IMG/VR virus record: IMGVR_UViG_3300022745_000060
Location: 1 to 44,330 of that record
DNA: 44,330 bases
DNA from: a virus
Strand: one strand, 5' to 3'
The translations under genes and the position numbers were made by a program. Within the stretch, counting starts at the first letter, position 1; each line of letters begins with the position of its first letter. Below the pieces are notes generated by a model. It was not told the DNA's origin. It was given only the letters and a program-made list of their open reading frames with translations, and made no database searches. Below, one piece after another: positions 899 to 23,306 of this stretch.

Positions 899-1047
899 TG
901 GTTTCCAATTTTTGAAAGTGCTACAAAAATATTTTCAATTGTGAGCAAATCGTATTCATCGTAAAAAGCGCGGTTTTTATTTGCTTTAGGTTGAATTTCT
1001 TTCATAGCAAATTCATTAAAAACCAACTTTTCAAAATCTTCGCCCAT
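895..1047 (-). CDS. Small hypothetical protein
   Basis: 50 residues, beginning MGEDFEKLVFNEFAMKEI. Its start overlaps the stop of the upstream 21-residue ORF (TAATG), and its own stop overlaps the next start (ATGA), so it is one link in a tightly coupled run of tiny early genes. No domain seen. Confidence 0.6.
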   Translation of the reverse strand: MGEDFEKLVFNEFAMKEIQPKANKNRAFYDEYDLLTIENIFVALSKIGNQ

Positions 1048-1112
1048 TATTGAACTTCTTCGGGTTGTACGGCATTTTGTATTGCGTCTGCTATTTGCTC
1101 TGCTTTACTCAT
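1047..1112 (-). CDS. 21-residue micro-ORF
   Basis: Reads MSKAEQIADAIQNAVQPEEV plus Q; amphipathic and probably helical. It ends TAATG, sharing a base with the next start. It lies 59 bases downstream of the Sak4-like ATPase stop. Too short to assign; listed because both gene spacing and the coupled stop/start fit the operon style. Confidence 0.45.
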   Translation of the reverse strand: MSKAEQIADAIQNAVQPEEVQ

Positions 1113-1171
1113 TGTTTTTTGTTTTAAAATCCCCCAACCACAGAAGCCGGGGAAAACTGATACGTACTCGA

Positions 1172-2278
1172 TTAAATTAACCCATTATTCTTGATTCGAT
1201 AATCCAGCATTTCACCAATTTTCGTGGCTTCTGGCTTCTCGTTACTTGCGGCACAAATTTCCATGTAAGAAATATAGTCCTCAGCAAAACCCTTCAAAAG
1301 TCCTTCGCCTTTCTTCAATTTCTCGTTAGTGATTCCTTCAAGGGCATCAAGCGAAACAAACCCAAAAATCTTTTTCAGGATTGCAGCTTTGAGCTGCTTG
1401 TCAGATTGAGCCGTTCCAAACTTCATGTAATCGAAAGTTTTTTCAATTTCTGCAATCAGGATTTCGCGTTCTTTTTTCCAAGCGTGACCGCGTTCCTCGT
1501 TTTCTGCAAAGGTATCGGTGATTTCGCGCATGGTATCCTCTTTGACCTGGCCATTTAGGAAGACATCAAAAGCGGGTTTAAAATCTGCATAGGTAGGATT
1601 GATAAAAACTTTGCCATCGGTGCGGGTAGTACGGTCTTTCAAGACGGTTGCAACACGAGTGATTTTTTTGGTATCACCCAAAACGTCTTGGTGTTTCTCC
1701 ATCAATACAAGTACATCAGGTTCGAAAGCAGTTTCAGTTTCAGCTTTCATTTTGATTCCAGACTTGTGAATTTCACGTTTTCCAGTCTGTTCGTCTTTTT
1801 CGGTTTCGTATTCATACCCAGCCCGACCAGTAAAAAAAATGTGAATTTTGGCCTTCACAAATGGCGTAGAGAATTGTTGTTTCCATTGCGGCTTAATCAC
1901 TCCCCAATCTTGGAACTCCAAACGGGTGCGTTTTTTCTGGTTCATGTACGCTTGCAAAAATTCTTCCCAAACATGGGTGATAGAATCAATCACAAGAATA
2001 TCAGCGCCGCCTTCCTCGCACCAAGCAATAGCCTCGTTTAAGGCTTTGAGGCTGCGATGTTCATCATCAACAACGCATTCTATGCCAGCATCGGAGAAAA
2101 CGCCTACAAGGGCTTTGGCTGCCTTCTCTGTGTCAAATATAGCAATGGGCTTTTGGCTTTTAATTTGTTTGTGCAAGCCAATAGCGCACTGGACAGCGGT
2201 ATAAGTTTTACCGTCACCCGCAAAACCTTGAAAAGCCATTTTGATGAAAGGTCTGTTGTTTTCCAATTTTTTGAACAT
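1172..2278 (-). CDS. Sak4-like RecA-family ATPase (AAA_24)
   Basis: 368 residues. A P-loop GFAGDGKT lies at about residues 18-25 and a Walker B ILVIDS at about 94-99, with an IFDTEKAA segment after strand 2. This is the layout of the phage nucleotide-binding AAA_24 / Sak4 group, RecA-like proteins that help single-strand annealing recombination during phage replication. The last roughly 120 residues are charged and helical and are probably accessory. It stands in the leftward early operon with helicase and initiator genes. ATPase family is clear; the recombination role is known for the family, not shown here. Confidence 0.85.
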   Translation of the reverse strand: MFKKLENNRPFIKMAFQGFAGDGKTYTAVQCAIGLHKQIKSQKPIAIFDTEKAAKALVGVFSDAGIECVVDDEHRSLKALNEAIAWCEEGGADILVIDSITHVWEEFLQAYMNQKKRTRLEFQDWGVIKPQWKQQFSTPFVKAKIHIFFTGRAGYEYETEKDEQTGKREIHKSGIKMKAETETAFEPDVLVLMEKHQDVLGDTKKITRVATVLKDRTTRTDGKVFINPTYADFKPAFDVFLNGQVKEDTMREITDTFAENEERGHAWKKEREILIAEIEKTFDYMKFGTAQSDKQLKAAILKKIFGFVSLDALEGITNEKLKKGEGLLKGFAEDYISYMEICAASNEKPEATKIGEMLDYRIKNNGLI

Positions 2279-2296
2279 GGTTTTTGAGTTATGGGA

Positions 2297-2623
2297 TTAA
2301 ATATGTAATTCAAATTGCTGTACAGCAAGCAACTTTACGACCTCGGTGCGTTGGTCGCCTGATAATTCTTTGAGCAAATCCCAAAGCGGAATTGTAAGCG
2401 GTTTGTGATTACCATCTGACATCATTTGCCCAAGAAATGCAGGAGAGGCGTATACAGCGCCGTCTTTGTCCGCATCAATTGGTGCGTTAATGAAGTCAAG
2501 ATCAATCGCAGCCTCAAAGGCTTGCAATTGGGTAAAAGCAAAGTCAATTTCATTGTACCCATATGTTCCACGGGCAAAACCGTTTTTCAAGTCATAATCG
2601 TCGATAAAGATTCTTTGTTCCAT
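2297..2623 (-). CDS. Hypothetical early protein behind a palindrome promoter
   Basis: 108 residues, acidic, beginning MEQRIFIDDYDLKNG. No family recognised. It follows one of the five palindrome promoters (palindrome 2674-2695, -7 box on the minus strand at 2653-2646) and is separated from the ATPase gene by 18 bases, so this promoter probably also feeds the ATPase. That points to a DNA-metabolism role by position only. Confidence 0.75.
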   Translation of the reverse strand: MEQRIFIDDYDLKNGFARGTYGYNEIDFAFTQLQAFEAAIDLDFINAPIDADKDGAVYASPAFLGQMMSDGNHKPLTIPLWDLLKELSGDQRTEVVKLLAVQQFELHI

Positions 2624-2645
2624 GTTTTTTGCGTTTTGTTCCTTA

Positions 2646-2695
2646 CAAATATCGGCCTATTTCATGACCTGCGAAATACCCAAAACATGGTATTT
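2646..2695 (-). promoter_or_regulatory. Palindrome promoter, site 1
   Basis: AAATACC-CAAAACAT-GGTATTT at 2674-2695 on the plus strand. On the minus strand it is followed by exactly 20 bases and then GATATTTG (2653-2646), close to the Bacteroidota -7 box TAnnTTTG. The distal palindrome arm overlaps the expected -33 element. It drives the gene starting at 2623. Confidence 0.75.
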
Positions 2696-2968
2696 TTAAA
2701 ATGGCGTTTCATCATCCTGCACCGTCATATCTATCTCCTTTGGCAACTTATCGAAATACTCGAATAGTTCTTTTTCATACGGCGCATTTAACCTGTCTAG
2801 TAGCGCGGCAATTTGTATCAGCGTGTGCGCTTCATAATACCCCGGTTTGTCATTTGGGTAAAACACCCAAAAACCGGATTCCTCGCATACGGCTTGACCT
2901 ATGCAGACATTGTTTCCAAAGATGTTCAAGAATGCGGGAGACAGAGTAGGTATTGTGGTTATACTCAT
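2696..2968 (-). CDS. Small hypothetical acidic protein
   Basis: 90 residues from the ATG at 2968 (MSITTIPTLSPAFLN). An upstream in-frame ATG exists, but the extra N-terminus would be encoded by a hairpin region and has a cysteine-rich, unlikely sequence, so I reject it. The C-terminus is acidic (TVQDDETPF), a pattern also common in phage ssDNA-binding proteins, but there is no OB-fold signature to support that. Function unknown. Confidence 0.65.
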   Translation of the reverse strand: MSITTIPTLSPAFLNIFGNNVCIGQAVCEESGFWVFYPNDKPGYYEAHTLIQIAALLDRLNAPYEKELFEYFDKLPKEIDMTVQDDETPF

Positions 2969-3007
2969 TTTGCGAAAATTAAAAGGATTAGAATTAAACA
3001 AAAGCGG

Positions 3008-3034
3008 CCAGGAATTACCCCAGCCGCAAAACCT
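3008..3034 (-). terminator. Hairpin, probable minus-strand terminator
   Basis: GCGGC and GCCGC arms around a partly paired loop, followed on the minus strand by TTTTGTTT. It lies between the genes starting at 3395 and 2968. Confidence 0.4.
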
Positions 3035-3101
3035 TAACCTAAATAAATTACCCAAACAAAAAATGAATAATTGCGCTTGTTCAAGCAGTTGCGCTGCTGC
3101 T

Positions 3102-3395
3102 TTATTTTTCCCGTGCAATATGGATAATATCGCCCAATTCGCCTTGGATTAACGTCAAACCATGTTCTTTTGCCATATGGTCAAATAACTCATTGTGTGG
3201 AAAATCTTTTTTGCCTATAATCGGGAGTAGTTTTTCGGTAATCTCGGCGGCAATTTCTTGGCAAAATTTAGCGTGGGTAAAATATCCTGGATTTTTTACA
3301 CCAAAATCAACAACAATTCTATTGTCGCCAGGATTTACTAGGTTAGTTTCATTTTCAAAGTACTCCGCAATTACTTTTACAATTTCGTCTTTCAT
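3102..3395 (-). CDS. Hypothetical early protein
   Basis: 97 residues, beginning MKDEIVKVIAEYFENETN. Alternating helix/strand appearance (VVDFGVKNPGYFTHAKFC, then helices), no known motif. It starts 2 bases after the stop of the gene at 3398-3604, so the two are in one operon. Confidence 0.7.
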   Translation of the reverse strand: MKDEIVKVIAEYFENETNLVNPGDNRIVVDFGVKNPGYFTHAKFCQEIAAEITEKLLPIIGKKDFPHNELFDHMAKEHGLTLIQGELGDIIHIAREK

Positions 3396-3397
3396 GG

Positions 3398-3604
3398 TTA
3401 TTGATTTTGAAGTTCAACAAGTTCAGCGGGAACGTCAAACCAATTGTTGTAACGAGGGTGTTTAATTTGGTAATTTCCAAAAGCCCCACTACTGAATTTA
3501 ACCCGGCGACCTTCAAGCACCCGATTTTTTCCAGCAAATTTGTTCATTATCCAGCGTGGATTTTTGCCCTGTTTGATTAGTTTGAATTTGACGTACTCGA
3601 ACAT
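3398..3604 (-). CDS. Small basic hypothetical protein
   Basis: 68 residues with many Lys/Arg (FKLIKQGKNPRW, GKNRVLEGRRVKF). Predicted beta-rich; could bind nucleic acid, but nothing diagnostic. It is flanked closely by genes on both sides in the same direction. Confidence 0.65.
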   Translation of the reverse strand: MFEYVKFKLIKQGKNPRWIMNKFAGKNRVLEGRRVKFSSGAFGNYQIKHPRYNNWFDVPAELVELQNQ

Positions 3605-3613
3605 GGTATTGGT

Positions 3614-3784
3614 TTAAAACGGTTTACAATTTAATTCTTCCAACTTCTCCGCAGCCCCAGCGCATGCTATAACCAGTATTTCCGATGCATCCCAAAGCGG
3701 CACAAATACAGCGCCGCTGTTGGAATAAATGCGCAATTGTCCGTCGACTTGGCGCAGGGTAGGGGTTGTCCAGCCTTTAAGCAT
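3614..3784 (-). CDS. Small hypothetical protein
   Basis: 56 residues from the ATG at 3784 (MLKGWTTPTLRQVDG). A longer start at 3826 would overlap the upstream gene by 26 bases and is less likely. The C-terminal half has a VIACAGAAEKLEELN helix. No family recognised. Confidence 0.6.
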   Translation of the reverse strand: MLKGWTTPTLRQVDGQLRIYSNSGAVFVPLWDASEILVIACAGAAEKLEELNCKPF

Positions 3785-3800
3785 TGTAAAAAGATTCTTC

Positions 3801-4007
3801 CTATTTAGTAATCGCATCGCATTCAAAATCGTATTCAGCGGTTACTTTGCCAAACGTGTAATTTTCAAAGCATTCAATTTGAGATGTACGGAAAAACTCA
3901 ATTTCTTCCTTGTCAGCATTTGATTCAAAAGGGCATTCAATTATCCATTCTTGGAAGAAAATTCCGACACTTAGATCGCCGTGGTCAGTGATAAATAACT
4001 TTGCCAT
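3801..4007 (-). CDS. Small acidic hypothetical protein behind a palindrome promoter
   Basis: 68 residues, beginning MAKLFITDHGDLSVG, acidic with paired aromatics. It is the first gene after palindrome promoter site 2 and leads a run of four small leftward genes down to 3102. Unknown function. Confidence 0.7.
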   Translation of the reverse strand: MAKLFITDHGDLSVGIFFQEWIIECPFESNADKEEIEFFRTSQIECFENYTFGKVTAEYDFECDAITK

Positions 4008-4024
4008 ATTGTTTTGATTTTCAA

Positions 4025-4074
4025 CAAAGTTCTAAATTTAAATTCACGTCAGCAATACCATAAAAATGGTATTT
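4025..4074 (-). promoter_or_regulatory. Palindrome promoter, site 2
   Basis: CAATACC-ATAAAAAT-GGTATTT at 4053-4074, then on the minus strand exactly 20 bases and GAACTTTG (4032-4025), matching (T/G)AnnTTTG. It drives the gene starting at 4007. The central bases are identical to site 5. Confidence 0.75.
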
Positions 4075-4261
4075 ATTTTGCCGGAATTGCAAAAATAAAC
4101 CCACAAATAACTAGTTGTCTATGTGTAGACCAGTTTTCAAAAGAACAAAACCAAGCCCACAAAGGCTTATCTCCTGCTATCCAGGCCGTTGGTGTTGCGT
4201 ACCCTATGCCATAAAATCAAGAACTCCAAAACTGGATAACTCCATTGCTTAACTTTTTCAT
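4073..4261 (-). pseudogene. Small membrane-type ORF interrupted by an in-frame TGA
   Basis: From the ATG at 4261 the frame reads MKKLSNGVIQFWSS, then TGA (4219-4217), then 47 further codons (FYGIGYATPTAWIAG and on) to a TAA at 4075-4073. The sequence on both sides of the TGA looks like one continuous small Trp-rich, membrane-associated protein. TGA is an ordinary stop elsewhere in this genome, so a nonsense mutation is the simplest reading. Readthrough or an assembly error are alternatives. Confidence 0.4.
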
Positions 4262-4284
4262 GTTTTTGTTTAATTTAATTGTGA

Positions 4285-5790
4285 TTAAAACGGCAAATTC
4301 CCTTCAAAATTCCGGTTGTCTGACTGGATTGGTTCTTGCAACGGTACTATGTTCGGTTGCTCCGACTTGACTAGAAACTGGTTAGAGGCGGATTGTACCT
4401 GTTCTTCCTGCCATTCCCACCATGACCCGGTGCGACCGTCAAAAGCCCGGTTTTTAGCGATAATATATTCGCAGTCGTACCTATTGTAAGACGTTCCTTT
4501 ATAGTTATAGCGCGTCACGATTTGCCCGCCTTCGTGGTGTTGTTCGCTCCAATCCTCGTATGCACCAGGCCGAAACAAAAGCAGCATCCAATCCCCTGCG
4601 TGTTCCATTGCGCTAGACCCTAGTACATCCTCTTTATGAGGTCTTCTATCTGCGCGGGTGTCTACACCTCGGTTGAACTGAGTAAGCAGTACCCCAAGTA
4701 TACCAGCGGCTTTATTGAACGCTGAAAAGTCTTTTGATAGCTTTGAAAGCGTCTTTACATCGTTTCCGCTGTTGTCGATCTTATCTATTCCGGTTTCACA
4801 AAGTTGGATATAGTCCAGGCAATAGGCAAATAGATCATACTTGCGAATGCACCAGCGGATTTTTTGCCGTATCAGCGTTCCTTTGTTGGTCGTTTCCTTC
4901 ATATCGAAAACGTAAAAGGGTAGATTTGAAACCCGCTTCAAAGCGTCTGAAAGCATCTTCATTTTATACTCAGGTAGTACCAGTTTATACTTTCCAGTAG
5001 CTTCATCAAATACACGGCTTGACAAATCCTTCATCGACAATCCGCTTTCGATCTTGTACACCCGCTGCCAAATCTGTTTTTTGGTAAGCTCCATTGAGAA
5101 GAATGCAACAGGCTTTCCGCTTTTTGCCAAATCCAAAAGCAACTTCAAAGCCTTTTCGGTTTTCCCCGTTCCTGTCGTACCAGCAATAAACCCAGTTTGG
5201 CCTTTTTGGACGCCGCCTGTAATCTCGTCGAATTCAGGCCAACAGGTAGATACTCCAATTTGCCCTTGCTCTATGTCTTGCCAAGCTTCATACATTTCAT
5301 CGCCTCGCGTCTTTTCTGGTTCTGGTTCTGAATAATCTGCCATTCGTTCTTGTACATATGCCCATGTTTCGCTTGGGTGGTACTGGCTATATTGCCCATT
5401 TTTCCTATCAAGCATCTGAGCATAAGCATCTGCGTAAATACCCAAATGCAATTCAATGTCGTATTCCTCTTTTAAAAATTCGATTGCAGAACTACATGTT
5501 TCAGGCTGTGAGTCCATAATCAAATCTGTAATGTCTCCCCACTTCGATGCGGCAATTTGCACATCCCAAGACATCATTTTGTTTACGTCCAAATCGTACA
5601 TCCACTCATAAATGACTCGAAAATGCTTGAACATTTCAGGTTTCAAAACCTTGTTGGCAATTGAAAAATATTCAGGCGCACAAAGCAGTGTTCCAATGAT
5701 ACTAGACTCTACGTGGTAAGTCGTTTTGGCTACGTCTTTTTGTTGGTTCTTGTTCATATCGCTAAGATTGATTTGTAAACATTGCGCCAT
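4285..5790 (-). CDS. dnaB: DnaB-like replicative helicase
   Basis: 501 residues. The N-terminal domain ESSIIGTLL is typical of DnaB. A linker leads to a RecA-type core with Walker A GTTGTGKT at about 204-211, the FFSMELT segment, Walker B FAYCLDYIQL, a switch-type LLTQFNRG, and HKEDVLGSSAMEHAGD. It unwinds DNA ahead of the phage fork as a hexamer. It overlaps the 110-residue gene upstream by 37 bases; an internal Met at residue 12 would reduce this overlap, so the start is uncertain. Helicase assignment is firm. Confidence 0.93.
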   Translation of the reverse strand: MAQCLQINLSDMNKNQQKDVAKTTYHVESSIIGTLLCAPEYFSIANKVLKPEMFKHFRVIYEWMYDLDVNKMMSWDVQIAASKWGDITDLIMDSQPETCSSAIEFLKEEYDIELHLGIYADAYAQMLDRKNGQYSQYHPSETWAYVQERMADYSEPEPEKTRGDEMYEAWQDIEQGQIGVSTCWPEFDEITGGVQKGQTGFIAGTTGTGKTEKALKLLLDLAKSGKPVAFFSMELTKKQIWQRVYKIESGLSMKDLSSRVFDEATGKYKLVLPEYKMKMLSDALKRVSNLPFYVFDMKETTNKGTLIRQKIRWCIRKYDLFAYCLDYIQLCETGIDKIDNSGNDVKTLSKLSKDFSAFNKAAGILGVLLTQFNRGVDTRADRRPHKEDVLGSSAMEHAGDWMLLLFRPGAYEDWSEQHHEGGQIVTRYNYKGTSYNRYDCEYIIAKNRAFDGRTGSWWEWQEEQVQSASNQFLVKSEQPNIVPLQEPIQSDNRNFEGNLPF

Positions 5791-6086
5791 TCAGGCTTTT
5801 TACTTTCTTCCATGTGCTTCCCTATTTCGATAATATCAGCAAGCACTTTCTCTTTTGGCGTTCCGTTCTGGATTGCTTCCTTAAATAAAAATATGCAAAA
5901 CTGACACCAAATTTCATGTTCTTTTGGTGATAACGATAGAGTTAAATTTGCCTCTTTCTTTACCTCAGTCTTATATTCATTACTCCCTGATCCAAACTTT
6001 GCACCTATTGCGTTAGTGCGTACCTGTTGGCGTTGAAGCGGGGCATGTAGTTCCTGGATTGCTTTAGAAAATTCTGTTCGGTTCAT
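5754..6086 (-). CDS. Hypothetical protein between initiator and helicase
   Basis: 110 residues, beginning MNRTEFSKAIQELHAP. The N-terminal half is polar; the C-terminal half is helical (SPKEHEIWCQFCIFLF, VLADIIEIGKHMEES). It starts with ATGA overlapping the stop of the initiator gene and overlaps the helicase start. Position between an O-like initiator and a DnaB-like helicase is where lambda-type phages keep a helicase loader, but it is much shorter than lambda P and has no loader motif. Role is inference from position. Confidence 0.7.
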   Translation of the reverse strand: MNRTEFSKAIQELHAPLQRQQVRTNAIGAKFGSGSNEYKTEVKKEANLTLSLSPKEHEIWCQFCIFLFKEAIQNGTPKEKVLADIIEIGKHMEESKKPEWRNVYKSILAI

Positions 6087-7006
6087 ACTCTTACCCCCAT
6101 TTTGGAAAATACATCGCCAACGGCTTTCAAATGCGCGTTGCTGGCCTCGATATCTTGTATTGTCAATTCGGGTTTCTGCTCAGTGTTGCGGATAGGTTGA
6201 AAGGACTTTATTGTTTCTGGGTTGTTCTTGTACTGGATAGGGCAGGGAACGACGACGGTTTTGTATTGAATTGCTTTGTTGATCCATGTAGCAATTGCAC
6301 CTCCCAACTTTTCGATCTTCCATCCAGTCTTGTCGTGGTGTAACCAAAATGCCTCTGCCTGATGATTAGCCCAGTTCCAGCAATCAATAATCTGTGGATG
6401 ATCTCTTTTTTTAGCAATTAACTTTTCATAAATTGGCTGTACCAATTCCTCTTGAGTAGGGGGGTAGATGTATTTTATCTTCTTTGCTTTTGACGGAATG
6501 ATTTCTACAACCTTAACCGCTGTTTCATCTACTTGATCGTGAATGGTTGTTAGGATTTCAGTTTCTTCAATTTTGGTTTGTGGTTCTTTCTTTTCTATTT
6601 TATTTAAGACTTTAATTTCTTTCTTTATATACTGTTCATTTTCTGAACACTTACTGTTCATTTTCTGAACACCTACCTGTTCATTTTCTGAACACCCATC
6701 GTTTAGTTTCTGAACATCTTGCTCATAAGCAATAGAGTAGAACTTAGCTGTTGCCCTCTTCAAATCATCACCTATTCGCTCTAAAAGTCCAGCAGAATCC
6801 ATGCGGTCAAAAATCCCTTTGACTGTTCCGCTAGATAACCCTAAAAAATCAGCTATCTTATGGCATCCGGTTTTTGTCCAGCCGTTTACCCCATACTCGG
6901 GATGGGTTTGAGTCTTGTAGATGTAATCTAAAACGCAGTATTCCAGAACGGAAATACCTAAAGCTTTGCGCGGGTTGTGTAGGACGTTGGTGTAAATCCA
7001 GTTCAT
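6083..7006 (-). CDS. Replication initiator-like protein with winged-helix N-terminus
   Basis: 307 residues from the ATG at 7006 (MNWIYTNVLHNP); a longer frame to 7069 runs through a terminator hairpin and is rejected. Residues about 20-95 look like a winged helix (EYCVLDYIYKT, HKIADFLGLSSGTVKGIF, MDSAGLLER), as in lambda O and plasmid-type initiators. The middle is Lys/Glu-rich and contains DNA repeats (6633-6716) that fit an origin. The C-terminus probably contacts other replication proteins. It is the first gene of the leftward operon and has a structured, regulated leader. Confidence 0.75.
   Translation of the reverse strand: MNWIYTNVLHNPRKALGISVLEYCVLDYIYKTQTHPEYGVNGWTKTGCHKIADFLGLSSGTVKGIFDRMDSAGLLERIGDDLKRATAKFYSIAYEQDVQKLNDGCSENEQVGVQKMNSKCSENEQYIKKEIKVLNKIEKKEPQTKIEETEILTTIHDQVDETAVKVVEIIPSKAKKIKYIYPPTQEELVQPIYEKLIAKKRDHPQIIDCWNWANHQAEAFWLHHDKTGWKIEKLGGAIATWINKAIQYKTVVVPCPIQYKNNPETIKSFQPIRNTEQKPELTIQDIEASNAHLKAVGDVFSKMGVRV
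6633..6716. repeat. Four iteron-like repeats inside the initiator gene, candidate origin
   Basis: TGTTCA-TTTTC-TGAACA occurs at 6633-6649, 6655-6671 and 6678-6694, with a degraded copy at 6700-6716 that keeps TTTCTGAACA. Spacing is 22, 23 and 22 bases. The middle copy is translated in a different frame (VQKMN rather than CSENEQ), so the DNA, not the protein, is what is conserved. An A-rich tract (minus strand, below 6633) lies next to the repeats, like the unwinding element beside the iterons of lambda ori in gene O. Confidence 0.7.
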
Positions 7007-7515: not shown

Positions 7516-7585
7516 TATCTTTGTTTTGCAGAGTTTACGTTTTTCATACTACTGATGTAGGCCGGGCATCTGCGTCCGGTTTTTA
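7516..7585 (+). promoter_or_regulatory. Rightward promoter and leader with terminator hairpin
   Basis: -7 box TATCTTTG at 7516-7523; no clear -33 TTG at the usual distance. The leader has a hairpin CCGGGC/GTCCGG (7562-7567 with 7574-7579) followed by TTTTT, ending only about 10 bases before the ATG at 7596. Five loop bases (TCTGC, 7569-7573) are complementary to GCAGA at the transcript start (7528-7532), a weaker form of the pairing seen in the other two leaders. Confidence 0.5.
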
Positions 7586-7595
7586 AACCAAAAAA

Positions 7596-7808
7596 ATGAG
7601 TGAAACAGATAAATACATTGATGAAATAGTCAATGATTCATGCGATGAATTAATACCAGAGGATTACTATTCTATTGCTGCAAAATTAGCAATAGCAATG
7701 GCAATAAGTGATTTATCAAAGAGTATTGATCGCGCATTTGGAACACAGATAGATGGTGTCCCAGCTTTTTTAGAAAAAATATCAATGGTTTTAGAGAATG
7801 GCAAATAA
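7596..7808 (+). CDS. Small acidic hypothetical protein, first rightward gene
   Basis: 70 residues, beginning MSETDKYIDEIVNDSCDEL. Acidic N-terminus and a helical middle (YYSIAAKLAIAMAISDLSKSI). No family recognised. Its start follows a leader terminator, so expression may depend on antitermination. Confidence 0.7.
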   Translation: MSETDKYIDEIVNDSCDELIPEDYYSIAAKLAIAMAISDLSKSIDRAFGTQIDGVPAFLEKISMVLENGK

Positions 7809-8049
7809 CGGCTTAATCAAAAAGAAATCAATCGCCCTTACCGAGGCAACGCATGCTCGGTTGATGGAGGTGATTGGATTTTTGCAAATAAAGCTTGGAT
7901 CGAACGTGACAGCAAACCAAGCTCTTGAAAAACTGATAGATTTTTGGAGGTACGAACACAGTATGGATGTGGAAGAAAAACAGCCGGGTGTACTTGAGCA
8001 AATCTTTTTCTCTAATGCATTTGAGTCACCTGAAAACGAAACAAAATGA
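7798..8049 (+). CDS. Small helical protein, possible ribbon-helix-helix type
   Basis: 83 residues overlapping the previous gene by 11 bases. The stretch KSIALTEATHARLMEVIGF followed by VTANQALEKLIDFW resembles small ribbon-helix-helix DNA-binding proteins (short strand, two helices). This is a look-alike call without a search. If right it could be a regulator of the late operon. Confidence 0.6.
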   Translation: MANNGLIKKKSIALTEATHARLMEVIGFLQIKLGSNVTANQALEKLIDFWRYEHSMDVEEKQPGVLEQIFFSNAFESPENETK

Positions 8050-15093: not shown

Positions 15094-15118
15094 ATTCCCC
15101 ATCTTTTCCGTAACTTGC
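15088..15118 (+). promoter_or_regulatory. Late promoter fused to terminator, copy 2
   Basis: T-run at 15088-15093, 17 bases, TAACTTGC at 15111-15118, then a 14-base gap to the portal ATG at 15133. Confidence 0.55.
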
Positions 15119-20837: not shown

Positions 20838-21500
20838 ATGTTCAAAAAACGAAAAAGCAAAGCCGATGCGCTTAAAGAAAGGCTACAAGATACGCAGGAC
20901 ATGGCAGAAGTATTACGCACGACGTTGGGTGCAGACATTGCGGAATACTACACTACTAAGCAACAGGGTCAAGTTCAGCGGCTTGTTACAGAGGACGGAA
21001 CATGGCTACCTAGCTTCACGGCGAACGGAAAAACTTATTACATTCGCAACCCAAAGGACGGGCTACCGTTACGCCGCCAACGGGAACTAGAAAAAATGTC
21101 TGTTGTCGTGCCGTTCAATGCCGGATTAGGTGAAGTTATTTCTAGCCTTTCCAGAATGAAGCGTATTTGCAATTCTCTTGTAGGCAGTAAGGATGCAAAT
21201 TTTACCGGGCTAGTTGAAGAGATTGTCAATTTAGAACGCGGATTAAGTGAGTCAAATCGAAAATGGCAAGCGTCCCTAATCATGTGTACCCTATTTATTT
21301 ATGAACCAGGAGAAGACCTAAAAACCTGGGATATTGACCACGCAAACCGGAAAATCGAGGATTGGGCTGCGGAGGGCTTGATTGAGGATGATTTTTTTAC
21401 ATTAGCTATGCAATGGAGTACATACAAACTCACATTGCAAGCGCAATTGTTGGAAAAAGTCAAAAAGGCGGCGCGGGTGTTCGGCTTCACGGATTTGTAA
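20838..21500 (+). CDS. Putative tail assembly chaperone (first part)
   Basis: 220 residues. The N-terminal 30 residues are a charged helix (KSKADALKERLQDTQDMAE); the rest is helical with YIRNPKDGLPLRRQRELEKM and HANRKIEDWAAEGLIED. Its end overlaps by 88 bases an open frame displaced by -1 (21413-21706), and both precede the tape measure gene, the context of gpG/gpGT chaperones. A possible but non-standard slip site C-AAA-AAG lies at 21461-21467. Confidence 0.55.
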   Translation: MFKKRKSKADALKERLQDTQDMAEVLRTTLGADIAEYYTTKQQGQVQRLVTEDGTWLPSFTANGKTYYIRNPKDGLPLRRQRELEKMSVVVPFNAGLGEVISSLSRMKRICNSLVGSKDANFTGLVEEIVNLERGLSESNRKWQASLIMCTLFIYEPGEDLKTWDIDHANRKIEDWAAEGLIEDDFFTLAMQWSTYKLTLQAQLLEKVKKAARVFGFTDL

Positions 21501-21706
21501 CAAGCCAGCGCGGTAAGTGGGAAAGTACAGCGGATTTGATTGATGAAAAGTATACTGAAATGGTATTGTTTGTCGCTCAGATGCTCGAAATAGATATGTC
21601 CGATCTTTGGGCTATATCCTACCCTGAATTTCTGCGATTGCTGGTTAAAGCGGATGAAATTGCAGAAATGAGAATGAACCAAATTGAGAAAGCAAAAAGC
21701 AAGTAG
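21413..21706 (+). CDS. Overlapping -1 frame ORF, possible chaperone extension
   Basis: 97 residues if started at the ATG at 21413 (MEYIQTHIASAIVG). It lies in the -1 frame relative to the 220-residue gene and is helical (YTEMVLFVAQMLEI, EFLRLLVKADEIAEMRM). It may be a separate gene or the T-part of a frameshifted tail chaperone. The long overlap argues for one or the other of these special cases. Confidence 0.55.
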   Translation: MEYIQTHIASAIVGKSQKGGAGVRLHGFVTSQRGKWESTADLIDEKYTEMVLFVAQMLEIDMSDLWAISYPEFLRLLVKADEIAEMRMNQIEKAKSK

Positions 21707-21734
21707 TAACTTTCCATAAATCAGGTTTTGTTAA

Positions 21735-21762
21735 GGCCGTGCTGAAAAGTGCGGGCTTTTTT
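21735..21762 (+). terminator. Imperfect intrinsic terminator upstream of the RAMP cassette
   Basis: GGCC(G)TGC ... GTGCGGGC with mismatches/bulge, followed by six T (21757-21762). It closes the preceding operon. Confidence 0.65.
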
Positions 21763-21763
21763 A

Positions 21764-21794
21764 TTTTGTTATTAAAAATATTATATTATCTTTG
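21764..21794 (+). promoter_or_regulatory. Host-type promoter of the RAMP cassette
   Basis: TTG at 21766-21768, 18 bases, TATCTTTG at 21787-21794. The -7 box is identical to that of the leftward early promoter, unlike the TAACTTGC boxes of the neighbouring late operons. Transcription should start at about 21800. Confidence 0.7.
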
Positions 21795-21799
21795 ACTTA

Positions 21800-21890
21800 T
21801 CCTTTGAACGGAGTGATGTACGCTCAAAGGAACAATTAGCAAATAAAATTGCTAACCTTGGCTGTCTGTACATCACCGGACAGCCTTTTT
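21800..21890 (+). ncRNA. Three-hairpin leader with exact loop-loop complement and terminator
   Basis: Hairpin 1: TCCTTTGA (21800-21807) with TCAAAGGA (21824-21831), loop containing GTGATGTA (21813-21820). Hairpin 2: TTAGCAA (21836-21842) with TTGCTAA (21849-21855). Hairpin 3: nine-pair stem 21860-21868 with 21877-21885, loop exactly TACATCAC (21869-21876), then six T. Loop 3 is the full reverse complement of the GTGATGTA in loop 1. It ends 12 bases before the ATG of the RAMP-like gene, so it is a leader, or a stand-alone RNA that also acts as one. Confidence 0.75.
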
Positions 21891-21902
21891 TATTTTATTA
21901 AT

Positions 21903-22538
21903 ATGGCCACTAAAACAGTTCAAAGCCCAACGGTGCAAATTAAAGCACCAAATTTTCAAGTAATTGAAGTTGAAATTGTAGGAACTGCGCCTTTTATGCA
22001 AGCTCGCTTTTCTCAAAAGTCGATGCTACAAATGGCCGACAAGATGAAAGCAGGGTCTACCGCTACGGGTAAAAAAGTTAGAAACGCCCGTGACTTCGAC
22101 GAAGACTTTGAGCAGGCAAAGCACATTTCAATGGATGGATGGGTTGGCATTCCAGCTAGTGCCTTTCGTTCTGCCTGTATTCGGGTGTGTTCTCTTGTTG
22201 GGTTCAAAATGACTCAGGCAAAAATGTCAATCTTTTTTGAAGCCGATGGCGAGGACAAGGTAGACGGCATTCCACTTGTAAAATTAATCGCAGGCGAACC
22301 AGAAAAATCCATGATGGCAACCCGAAATGCTACGGGAGTTGCTGATTTGCGTTGCCGTCCACTATGGCGCAAATGGGGTGCAAAGCTTCGGGTAAAATTT
22401 GATGCCGATCAATTCACTGCTCAGGATGTAATCAACTTAGTTCACCGAGCTGGTGTTCAATGCGGCGTTGGCGAAGGTAGACCATTTTCAAAAGATTCAA
22501 ACGGCTTAGGCTATGGGACTTTCACAATCAAAAATTAA
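21903..22538 (+). CDS. RAMP (Cas7-like) fold candidate
   Basis: 211 residues from the ATG at 21903; an upstream frame to 21849 would run through the terminator hairpin. Signatures in RAMP order: strand and turn EVEIVGTAPFM (22-32), GIPASAFRSACIR (82-94), which fits the IPGSSLKGxxR helix of Cas7/Csm3 proteins, and a C-terminal glycine loop CGVGEGRPFSKDSNGLGYG (187-205). Similar proteins are known in other phages without a defined role. It may coat RNA. It overlaps its partner gene by 26 bases and is followed by the pentamer array. Confidence 0.6.
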   Translation: MATKTVQSPTVQIKAPNFQVIEVEIVGTAPFMQARFSQKSMLQMADKMKAGSTATGKKVRNARDFDEDFEQAKHISMDGWVGIPASAFRSACIRVCSLVGFKMTQAKMSIFFEADGEDKVDGIPLVKLIAGEPEKSMMATRNATGVADLRCRPLWRKWGAKLRVKFDADQFTAQDVINLVHRAGVQCGVGEGRPFSKDSNGLGYGTFTIKN

Positions 22539-23025
22539 ACAGATTGCAAAGTTTGCGGATGGCTACCATGCCCCCGCTGGACTTAAAGCACAGACTGCCC
22601 TTGATGCGCTTTCAGATATTGAAAGTACAATAGGGCTTACACCGAGAAATGTTGTTGAAGCTAGTCGAAGCCCTTTAGCCGCTTTGCATCCATGTTTTGA
22701 ATGGAGCGACGATGTAGCGGCGGATAAATTCAGGCTTCACCAGGCATCAACCTTGATTAGATCTGTAAAGGTTGTAATTGAGGATGCAGAACCGATTGAA
22801 TACAGGCCATTTGTTCACGTGGTTGAAAACAGTGAACCGCAATACAAAAACGTTTCTTTTTTGTCTATTGACCAGGAAAAGGAAGTTGAAGAGAGTTTGA
22901 AAAAGTTCTTACTGTCTGCTCAAAAATCTTTAGACGAGTTTATACAGATCACCAAAAACAAGAAACGCAAAGCCCAACTTCTGAAAGCTCAGAAAAATCT
23001 GCAATTGGCCATTGCTGCTGTTTAG
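22513..23025 (+). CDS. Partner protein of the RAMP-like gene
   Basis: 170 residues. Start within the RAMP-like gene. A central conserved-looking stretch RNVVEASRSPLAALHPCFEW, then SDDVAADKFRLHQASTLIRS, followed by a beta segment and a long basic C-terminal helix (SLKKFLLSAQKSLDEF, KNKKRKAQLLKAQKNLQ). I recognise the middle motif as one found in phage proteins, but know no function. Its stop codon TAG runs directly into the first tetramer of the pentamer array. Confidence 0.7.
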   Translation: MGLSQSKIKQIAKFADGYHAPAGLKAQTALDALSDIESTIGLTPRNVVEASRSPLAALHPCFEWSDDVAADKFRLHQASTLIRSVKVVIEDAEPIEYRPFVHVVENSEPQYKNVSFLSIDQEKEVEESLKKFLLSAQKSLDEFIQITKNKKRKAQLLKAQKNLQLAIAAV

Positions 23026-23273
23026 GCAGGTGCGCCTAGGCCTGCTGCGGAAGTGAATGCAGCCGATAGGCGAAGCAGGCGAGGATCGGCATGGTACGGA
23101 TCGGTAAGGACTAGACCGGAAAGGCAGGCGAGGTATGTCATGGAACGGAGGGGACGCGTGAGGACTGGATTAGCAGGATTGGAACGGTGCGGAGAGCAAA
23201 GGAGAGAACCGGAGAAATAAGGCAGGCACGGCGAGGCCTGGAACGGAGGGGTTGGGGCGGGAGAGCAGACGCA
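23025..23273 (+). repeat. GGNNN pentamer array with 49-base super-period
   Basis: Non-coding, purine-rich and T-poor. Five consecutive units of exactly 49 bases (23029, 23078, 23127, 23176, 23225), each nine pentamers plus a final NGCA tetramer. The tetramers (GGCA, AGCA, GGCA, AGCA, GGCA, CGCA) end at 23028, 23077, 23126, 23175, 23224 and 23273. Of 45 pentamers 33 begin GG and 40 begin G, while the other three positions vary. It spans the stop codon to just before the terminator. Not a CRISPR, not a simple tandem repeat. Confidence 0.85.
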
Positions 23274-23277
23274 ATCA

Positions 23278-23306
23278 GGGAATGGTCAAAAGCCATTCCC
23301 TTTTTT
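23278..23306 (+). terminator. Intrinsic terminator closing the RAMP cassette
   Basis: GGGAATGG (23278-23285) pairs with CCATTCCC (23293-23300), then six T. Confidence 0.9.

Follow-up and report, generated by a model that had tools for sequence, protein, structure and literature searches.

A Rho-independent terminator whose entire hairpin loop is complementary to the loop of an upstream hairpin was identified in an RNA unit of ∼90 nucleotides (nt) at positions 21799 to 21893 of the viral stretch analyzed here (44,330 nt; IMG/VR record IMGVR_UViG_3300022745_000060; referred to below as the window). The unit carries a sigma-A promoter followed by three stem-loops, SL1, SL2, and the terminator SL3, and with a probability of about 0.5 it serves an exchangeable accessory-gene slot as a leader RNA that lies close to its promoter and is mostly terminated (an attenuator), in which kissing between the SL1 and SL3 loops would set the level of read-through. 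The promoter, the three hairpins, the terminator, the covarying loop complementarity, and the exchange of the downstream gene can all be read directly from the DNA. The RNA unit was present in three contigs, L126 and L127, which share 98% identity with the window, and L125, with 77%, giving only two independent sequence versions, that shared by the window, L127, and L126 (nearly identical) and that of L125. Elements at the locus follow the order terminator, promoter, three hairpins, terminator, start codon:

21737 to 21762, plus strand: strong upstream intrinsic terminator (stem 21737 to 21754 plus U-tract), splitting the unit from the preceding tail-region genes
21765 to 21768, plus strand: −33 element TTTG, 18 nt 5′ of the −7 box
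21787 to 21794, plus strand: −7 box TATCTTTG, fitting the Bacteroidota sigma-A consensus TAnnTTTG and identical in L125 and L127
21799, plus strand: predicted transcription start, with the −7 box placed at −12 to −5 (PMC9723704)
21800 to 21831, plus strand: SL1, an 11-level stem (21800 to 21810 with 21821 to 21831) with an A-C mismatch and a 10-nt loop
21836 to 21855, plus strand: SL2, a TTAGCAA/TTGCTAA hairpin, conserved in sequence with a variable loop
21860 to 21885, plus strand: SL3, the terminator hairpin, in which a stem of 9 bp closes an 8-nt loop, TACATCAC, at 21869 to 21876
21886 to 21897, plus strand: U-tract TTTTTTATTTTA, where homology among the three phages stops and all blastn alignments to the relatives end

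In Bacteroides, sigma-A promoters consist of TAnnTTTG at −7 and TTTG near −33 (PMC7366714), and the phage host is probably a member of the Bacteroidota. Because the −7 box spans −12 to −5 in Flavobacterium (PMC9723704), the +1 position is predicted at 21799, one base 5′ of SL1, which fits the proposal in an earlier note on this DNA that the RNA starts at the first hairpin. That note had also reported the coordinates of the stretch, the loop sequences, and the match of all eight loop bases, and these were correct; SL2, the strong upstream terminator, and the promoter were found in addition. The leader is predicted to fold at −33 kcal/mol (z = −5.4), much more stable than chance. Between 21786 and 21807, the start of SL1 (TTATCCTTTGAAC) nearly copies the −7 box (TTATCTTTGAC), a 12-nt tandem duplication that is absent in L125 and is perhaps the origin of the SL1 version found in the window.

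SL3 reads GGCTGTCTG-TACATCAC-CGGACAGCC, followed by the U-tract, and all eight bases of its loop are the exact reverse complement of GTGATGTA (21813 to 21820), the last eight of the 10-nt SL1 loop GAGTGATGTA (GA plus GTGATGTA). A loop-loop match of 8 was not reached in any of 4,000 dinucleotide shuffles, and a match of 7 was reached once. Among the other terminator-like hairpins in the window (34 scanned), at most 6 complementary bases were identified within 130 nt upstream. It had been suggested that the pairing could be extended to nine; the pair C21821-G21868 can form, but the closing pairs of both stems must then open. In both sequence versions the complementarity stops at the loop borders, with at most 1 to 2 further pairs.

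Comparison with L125, the one independent version besides that of the window, gives strong evidence that these loops interact. Both loops differ at four positions, TACATCAC/GTGATGTA being replaced by CACTCTAC/GTAGAGTG, and all four changes are compensated. The L125 SL3 loop CACTCTAC and SL1 loop AGGTAGAGTG are paired at 8/8 positions, again using the last eight of 10 nt after two purines, the extra 5′ purines being GA in the window and AG in L125. Independent variation of the loop bases in relatives, named earlier as the observation that would speak against the pairing, was not seen, as 4/4 loop changes in L125 were compensatory; the probability of all four compensating by chance is ∼2e−4. Within the kissing helix alone, four of the eight pairs were doubly changed, 100% of cells were paired, and none was broken. 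Counted over the whole pseudoknotted structure, including the kissing helix, 95% of cells pair and 11 pairs were changed on both sides, against a shuffle mean of 3.9 and 0 to 2 when partners were slid. Complementarity kept by compensatory changes characterizes kissing-loop RNAs, and here it covers 8/8 pairs in both versions with four double changes.

The conservation of the loop match stands out against the divergence of SL1, in which only 10/32 bases are identical between the window and L125 and six stem pairs were changed on both sides. The 11+10+11 layout of SL1 is kept in L127 and L125 while its sequence has been rewritten, and its identity is lower than that of the fourfold-degenerate sites of neighboring genes (0.57 to 0.69; binomial P of 4e−5 to 0.002). 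By contrast, the upstream terminator (52/56 bases of 21707 to 21762 kept in L125), the −7 box, SL2, and the SL3 stem are conserved. As all four loop changes in L125 compensate though SL1 kept just 10/32 bases, it is very likely that the SL1 and SL3 loops truly pair.

Protein searches with the tape measure, MCP, upstream gene, portal, TerL, and P0001 identified no homologues of the unit beyond L125 and L126/L127. Four DNA patterns and a covariance model, run over phages, viral contigs, genome contigs, and 395 further genomes, likewise returned only these contigs. Eight genome matches to the covariance model (E values, 4e−5 to 0.009) and a weaker one in G018 were rejected as plain terminators lacking an SL1-SL3 match, and an antisense-strand match (27 bits) merely reflects the mirror symmetry of three hairpins.

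The contigs of the relatives belong to close kin of the window phage and share its portal, head, tail-chaperone-like, and tape-measure genes. Homology between them and the window ends at 21897, where the U-tract stops, and picks up again near 23300, past the next terminator. The intervening slot lies between the tail-chaperone-like genes and the tape measure and in the window contains the following:

21903 to 22538, plus strand: slot gene 1, encoding a RAMP/Cas7-like protein (211 amino acids; phrog_4652); L125 and L127 have a ParB-like gene in its place
22513 to 23025, plus strand: slot gene 2 (170 amino acids; phrog_15946), candidate vap, adjacent to the RAMP-like gene in other phages as well, with a homologue in 6/6 P0001 loci examined
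23061 to 23270, plus strand: noncoding array of GGNNN pentanucleotides, similar to the vrRNA of VIPR systems (PMC13142463)

The ParB-like genes of L127 and L125 (phrog_5931) are 34% identical to each other and unrelated to the RAMP-like gene. The U-tract had been noted to end shortly before the start codon, and this spacing is 12 to 16 nt in all three phages despite the differing gene. A distant relative, G004 (64% TerL identity), has neither the RNA nor the slot; there, a small gene overlapping the chaperone-like gene leads straight into the tape measure. RNA and slot are therefore an insertion, of which the RNA is the constant part. RAMP-like homologues in three other viral contigs were found without such a leader. 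A dedicated regulator of the RAMP-like gene was therefore rejected, given these leaderless homologues and the presence of the same RNA before a different gene in L125 and L127.

No late-promoter-like motif was identified before the slot gene, the best site ranking about 469 window-wide; on this rank against the late motif, SL2 (TTGCTAACCTTGG) was rejected as the site of a late promoter. The only visible promoter for the slot gene is the one 5′ of the RNA, making read-through of SL3 the simplest route to its expression. Elsewhere in the window, a motif near GTAACTTGC (or GTAACCTTA) was found at 15111, 23324, and 27804, right after terminators and 22 to 24 nt 5′ of the portal, tape measure, and MCP start codons. 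It is a candidate late promoter and is similar to the SM5 promoter class of Flavobacterium, TAnnTTGY (PMC9723704). A second locus with the same logic as the RNA unit was identified at 7516 to 7597, where TATCTTTG at 7516, a second sigma-A promoter, is followed by a ∼45-nt leader, a terminator (7559 to 7582), and directly thereafter a gene. Two relatives have kept this promoter and terminator, and the gene differs in each (7597 to 7809 here); the loops at this locus have no kissing match. Upstream of the tape measure, the overlapping open reading frames at 20838 to 21500 and 21413 to 21706, the second in the −1 frame, look like tail assembly chaperones produced via programmed frameshifting.

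VIPR systems, to which a 2026 preprint assigns a role in conflict between phages, consist of vipr, vap, and a GGY/NN vrRNA (PMC13142463), the last recognized by 9 to 16 YNNGG repeats and association with a vipr gene (PMC13142463). Foldseek returned Csm3/Cas7 as the best matches to the RAMP-like protein (E value, 4.7e−5) using a model of moderate confidence (pLDDT, 61), and this is probably a Vipr protein. The slot from 21903 to 23270 is very probably a VIPR system (vipr, vap, and vrRNA), with GGY in the window array less strict than in the published consensus. GGNNN arrays adjoin RAMP homologues in six other loci of unrelated phages, and none was found in L125 or L127. The leader RNA itself was rejected as a vrRNA, as no YNNGG repeats occur in 21799 to 21897 and it is also present in L125 and L127, which lack both the RAMP gene and the array. 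In Gordonia phage ODay (L355), a RAMP-like homologue (gp19) and a GGNNN array lie between the tail assembly chaperone and the tape measure (region 910 to 6582). The ODay phage is unrelated to the window phage, and the interval between chaperone and tape measure is thus a recurrent insertion slot.

Kissing geometry was estimated with a simple A-form model. With its two spare nucleotides, the SL1 loop can span the deep groove of a kissing helix of 8 bp, the distance being 16.3 Å and the reach up to 20.4 Å. The SL3 loop has no spare nucleotide and must bridge 16.3 Å with one step; on this model it probably pairs through 6 to 7 bp, not all 8, while its stem is closed. SL1 and SL3 are linked by 4 nt, SL2, and 4 nt in the window, and the two linkers are 7 and 5 nt in L125. 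For coaxial kissing in cis with SL2 folded, the window RNA has a reach of 75 to 86 Å against a span of 70 to 76 Å, which is barely enough, so that cis kissing is possible there but would be taut; the longer linkers of L125 permit it easily. Folding of the growing transcript identified a nested helix between loop 1 and loop 3 as the best intermediate, or near it, in all three RNAs (76 to 80 nt in the window, 76 to 84 nt in L127, and from 84 nt on in L125), when the 3′ arm of SL3 is incomplete.

From these features we infer that the unit is transcribed, that kissing occurs in cis and influences termination in one direction or the other, and that the slot is expressed by read-through. The main sigma factor of the host would start constitutive transcription at about 21799, and the nascent RNA would fold SL1 and SL2. 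When the polymerase has made the 5′ half of the terminator, the future SL3 loop could pair with the SL1 loop; once the terminator stem closes, most transcripts would stop at 21886 to 21893, the main product being a compact ∼90-nt RNA held by SL1-SL3 kissing. The slot gene, whichever is present, would be expressed by those polymerases that pass the terminator, and kissing would most likely set their fraction by timing or by stabilizing the terminator. The attenuator layout of promoter, leader, intrinsic terminator, and gene is present in all three phages. A leader role is supported by conservation of the upstream terminator, the sigma-A promoter, and the SL3 terminator and by the 7516 to 7597 locus, which repeats the arrangement of promoter, short leader, terminator, and varying gene. 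It is further favored because the nested helix is the best nascent fold just before the 3′ arm of the terminator is synthesized.

The unit could instead be a stand-alone small RNA gene with its own promoter and terminator, the downstream gene being incidental, and perhaps a homodimer in which SL1 kisses SL3 of another molecule. This possibility, which we regard as somewhat doubtful, is consistent with retention of the RNA unit while the downstream gene was swapped, with the strength of the terminator, and with sequence conservation of SL2 and the linkers. The window linkers, almost too short for coaxial kissing in cis, would suit a dimer, as two molecules could pair SL1 and SL3 reciprocally, but the longer linkers of L125 easily allow cis kissing. 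The unit also always lies 12 to 16 nt before a gene without a visible promoter of its own, so that some read-through seems needed, and this favors the leader role; position alone is no proof of it, since gene starts right after terminators are common in compact phage genomes. Action in trans also features in a distinctly improbable proposal, that the SL1/SL3 loop pair is a specificity lock diversifying between competing relatives, through which the RNA would tune an inter-phage-warfare slot, occupied here by a VIPR-like system, without cross-talk. Its targets would be the leader of a co-infecting relative or its own read-through mRNA, as in plasmid copy-control RNAs and the P4/P1 immunity RNAs, to which the lock may be likened. 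It draws on the observation that SL1 is less identical than fourfold-degenerate sites while the promoter, SL2, and the terminator stem are conserved.

Alternatively, the covarying 8 bp could lie at the center of a nested antiterminator helix whose formation precludes both SL1 and SL3, in the manner of classical attenuators, with kissing never forming. Loop covariation alone fits both structures and cannot separate them, and the nested helix is the best, or near best, fold of the 76- to 84-nt intermediate in all three RNAs. In the finished L125 RNA it equals the three-hairpin fold (−37.9 versus −37.3 kcal/mol), but for the complete RNA the three hairpins are favored over it by 9.1 kcal/mol in the window and by 5.5 kcal/mol in L127. 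An antiterminator should also sequester the 5′ arm of the terminator, yet the complementarity ends with the loops in both versions, and this explanation is unlikely. Finally, an ordinary promoter and terminator might flank an accessory cassette, with a structured 5′ leader and a functionless loop match. Phages often carry cassettes that have a promoter and a terminator to themselves, and chance 8-base matches can arise in a large scan, but the absence of such a match from all 4,000 shuffles and its retention at 8/8 through four double changes in an independently diverged relative make this highly improbable.

Comparison with known families returned no assignment. No Rfam match at the gathering level was found in the window, the best permissive match being PyrR (26 bits versus 54 required). 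This PyrR-binding attenuator (RF00515), a family with anti-antiterminator, antiterminator, and terminator structures and a conserved PyrR-binding loop, was rejected as subthreshold, and the match rests on UCCUUU/AAAGGA, which is absent from L125 (15.5 bits). The Rfam family ctRNA_pT181 matched only at E values of 2.7 to 4.1, far under the gathering score. A trp-type leader-peptide attenuator was also rejected, as the window sequence ATG TAC GCT CAA AGG AAC AAT TAG is not conserved as a short open reading frame, its L125 counterpart being open into the next gene. In type III toxin-antitoxin (ToxIN-like) systems, an RNA of tandem repeats lies upstream of a terminator and a ToxN-like gene. Such a system was rejected, as aside from the −7 box duplication the RNA lacks tandem repeats, and no PADLOC or Pfam match was found for the downstream slot proteins.

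The closest working precedent is IsrK of the Gifsy-1 prophage, which has its own promoter and yields both a short terminated RNA and a read-through transcript with the RNA as its leader (PMC4825925); IsrK differs in that it works in trans, controlling how its own read-through mRNA is translated (PMC4825925). Both are phage loci in which one promoter would give a short terminated RNA and read-through, the latter inferred here. The likeness is one of layout, and SL1-SL3 kissing is not described for IsrK. In the Q-controlled pR′-6S RNA-tR′ region of lambda, a promoter yields a short terminated RNA, and genes are reached only by read-through. In the present phage a Q-type factor was not found, and the slot is an accessory one, whereas lambda controls its whole late operon; terminator-loop kissing is not a defining feature of the 6S leader. 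RNA-RNA complementarity decides leader termination in pT181-type antisense attenuators and the P4/P1 c4 immunity RNAs, the P4 CI RNA pairing with seqA and seqC; the partner there is a separate antisense or processed RNA, whereas both loops lie here in one short transcript. The kissing loops of HIV-1 DIS and ColE1 RNAI-RNAII are fully or nearly fully paired and intermolecular. The two 5′ purines of the SL1 loop resemble the HIV-1 DIS loop, but neither of these systems has a Rho-independent terminator hairpin as a partner. HK022 putRNA, which binds RNA polymerase and suppresses termination (PMC9378689), resembles the unit in general description, both being folded RNAs at the start of a phage transcript, while its polymerase binding and suppression of termination set it apart.

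An incomplete search of the literature returned no report of an intrinsic terminator whose whole loop kisses an upstream hairpin in cis. Structured phage leaders, attenuators, and kissing loops are already known; what would be new is an upstream hairpin kissing the whole terminator loop within one transcript. If the pairing sets termination, the unit would be a protein-free dial placed before an exchangeable phage gene slot, with a loop specificity that can be rewritten, and this rewritable specificity makes control in cis versus in trans directly testable.
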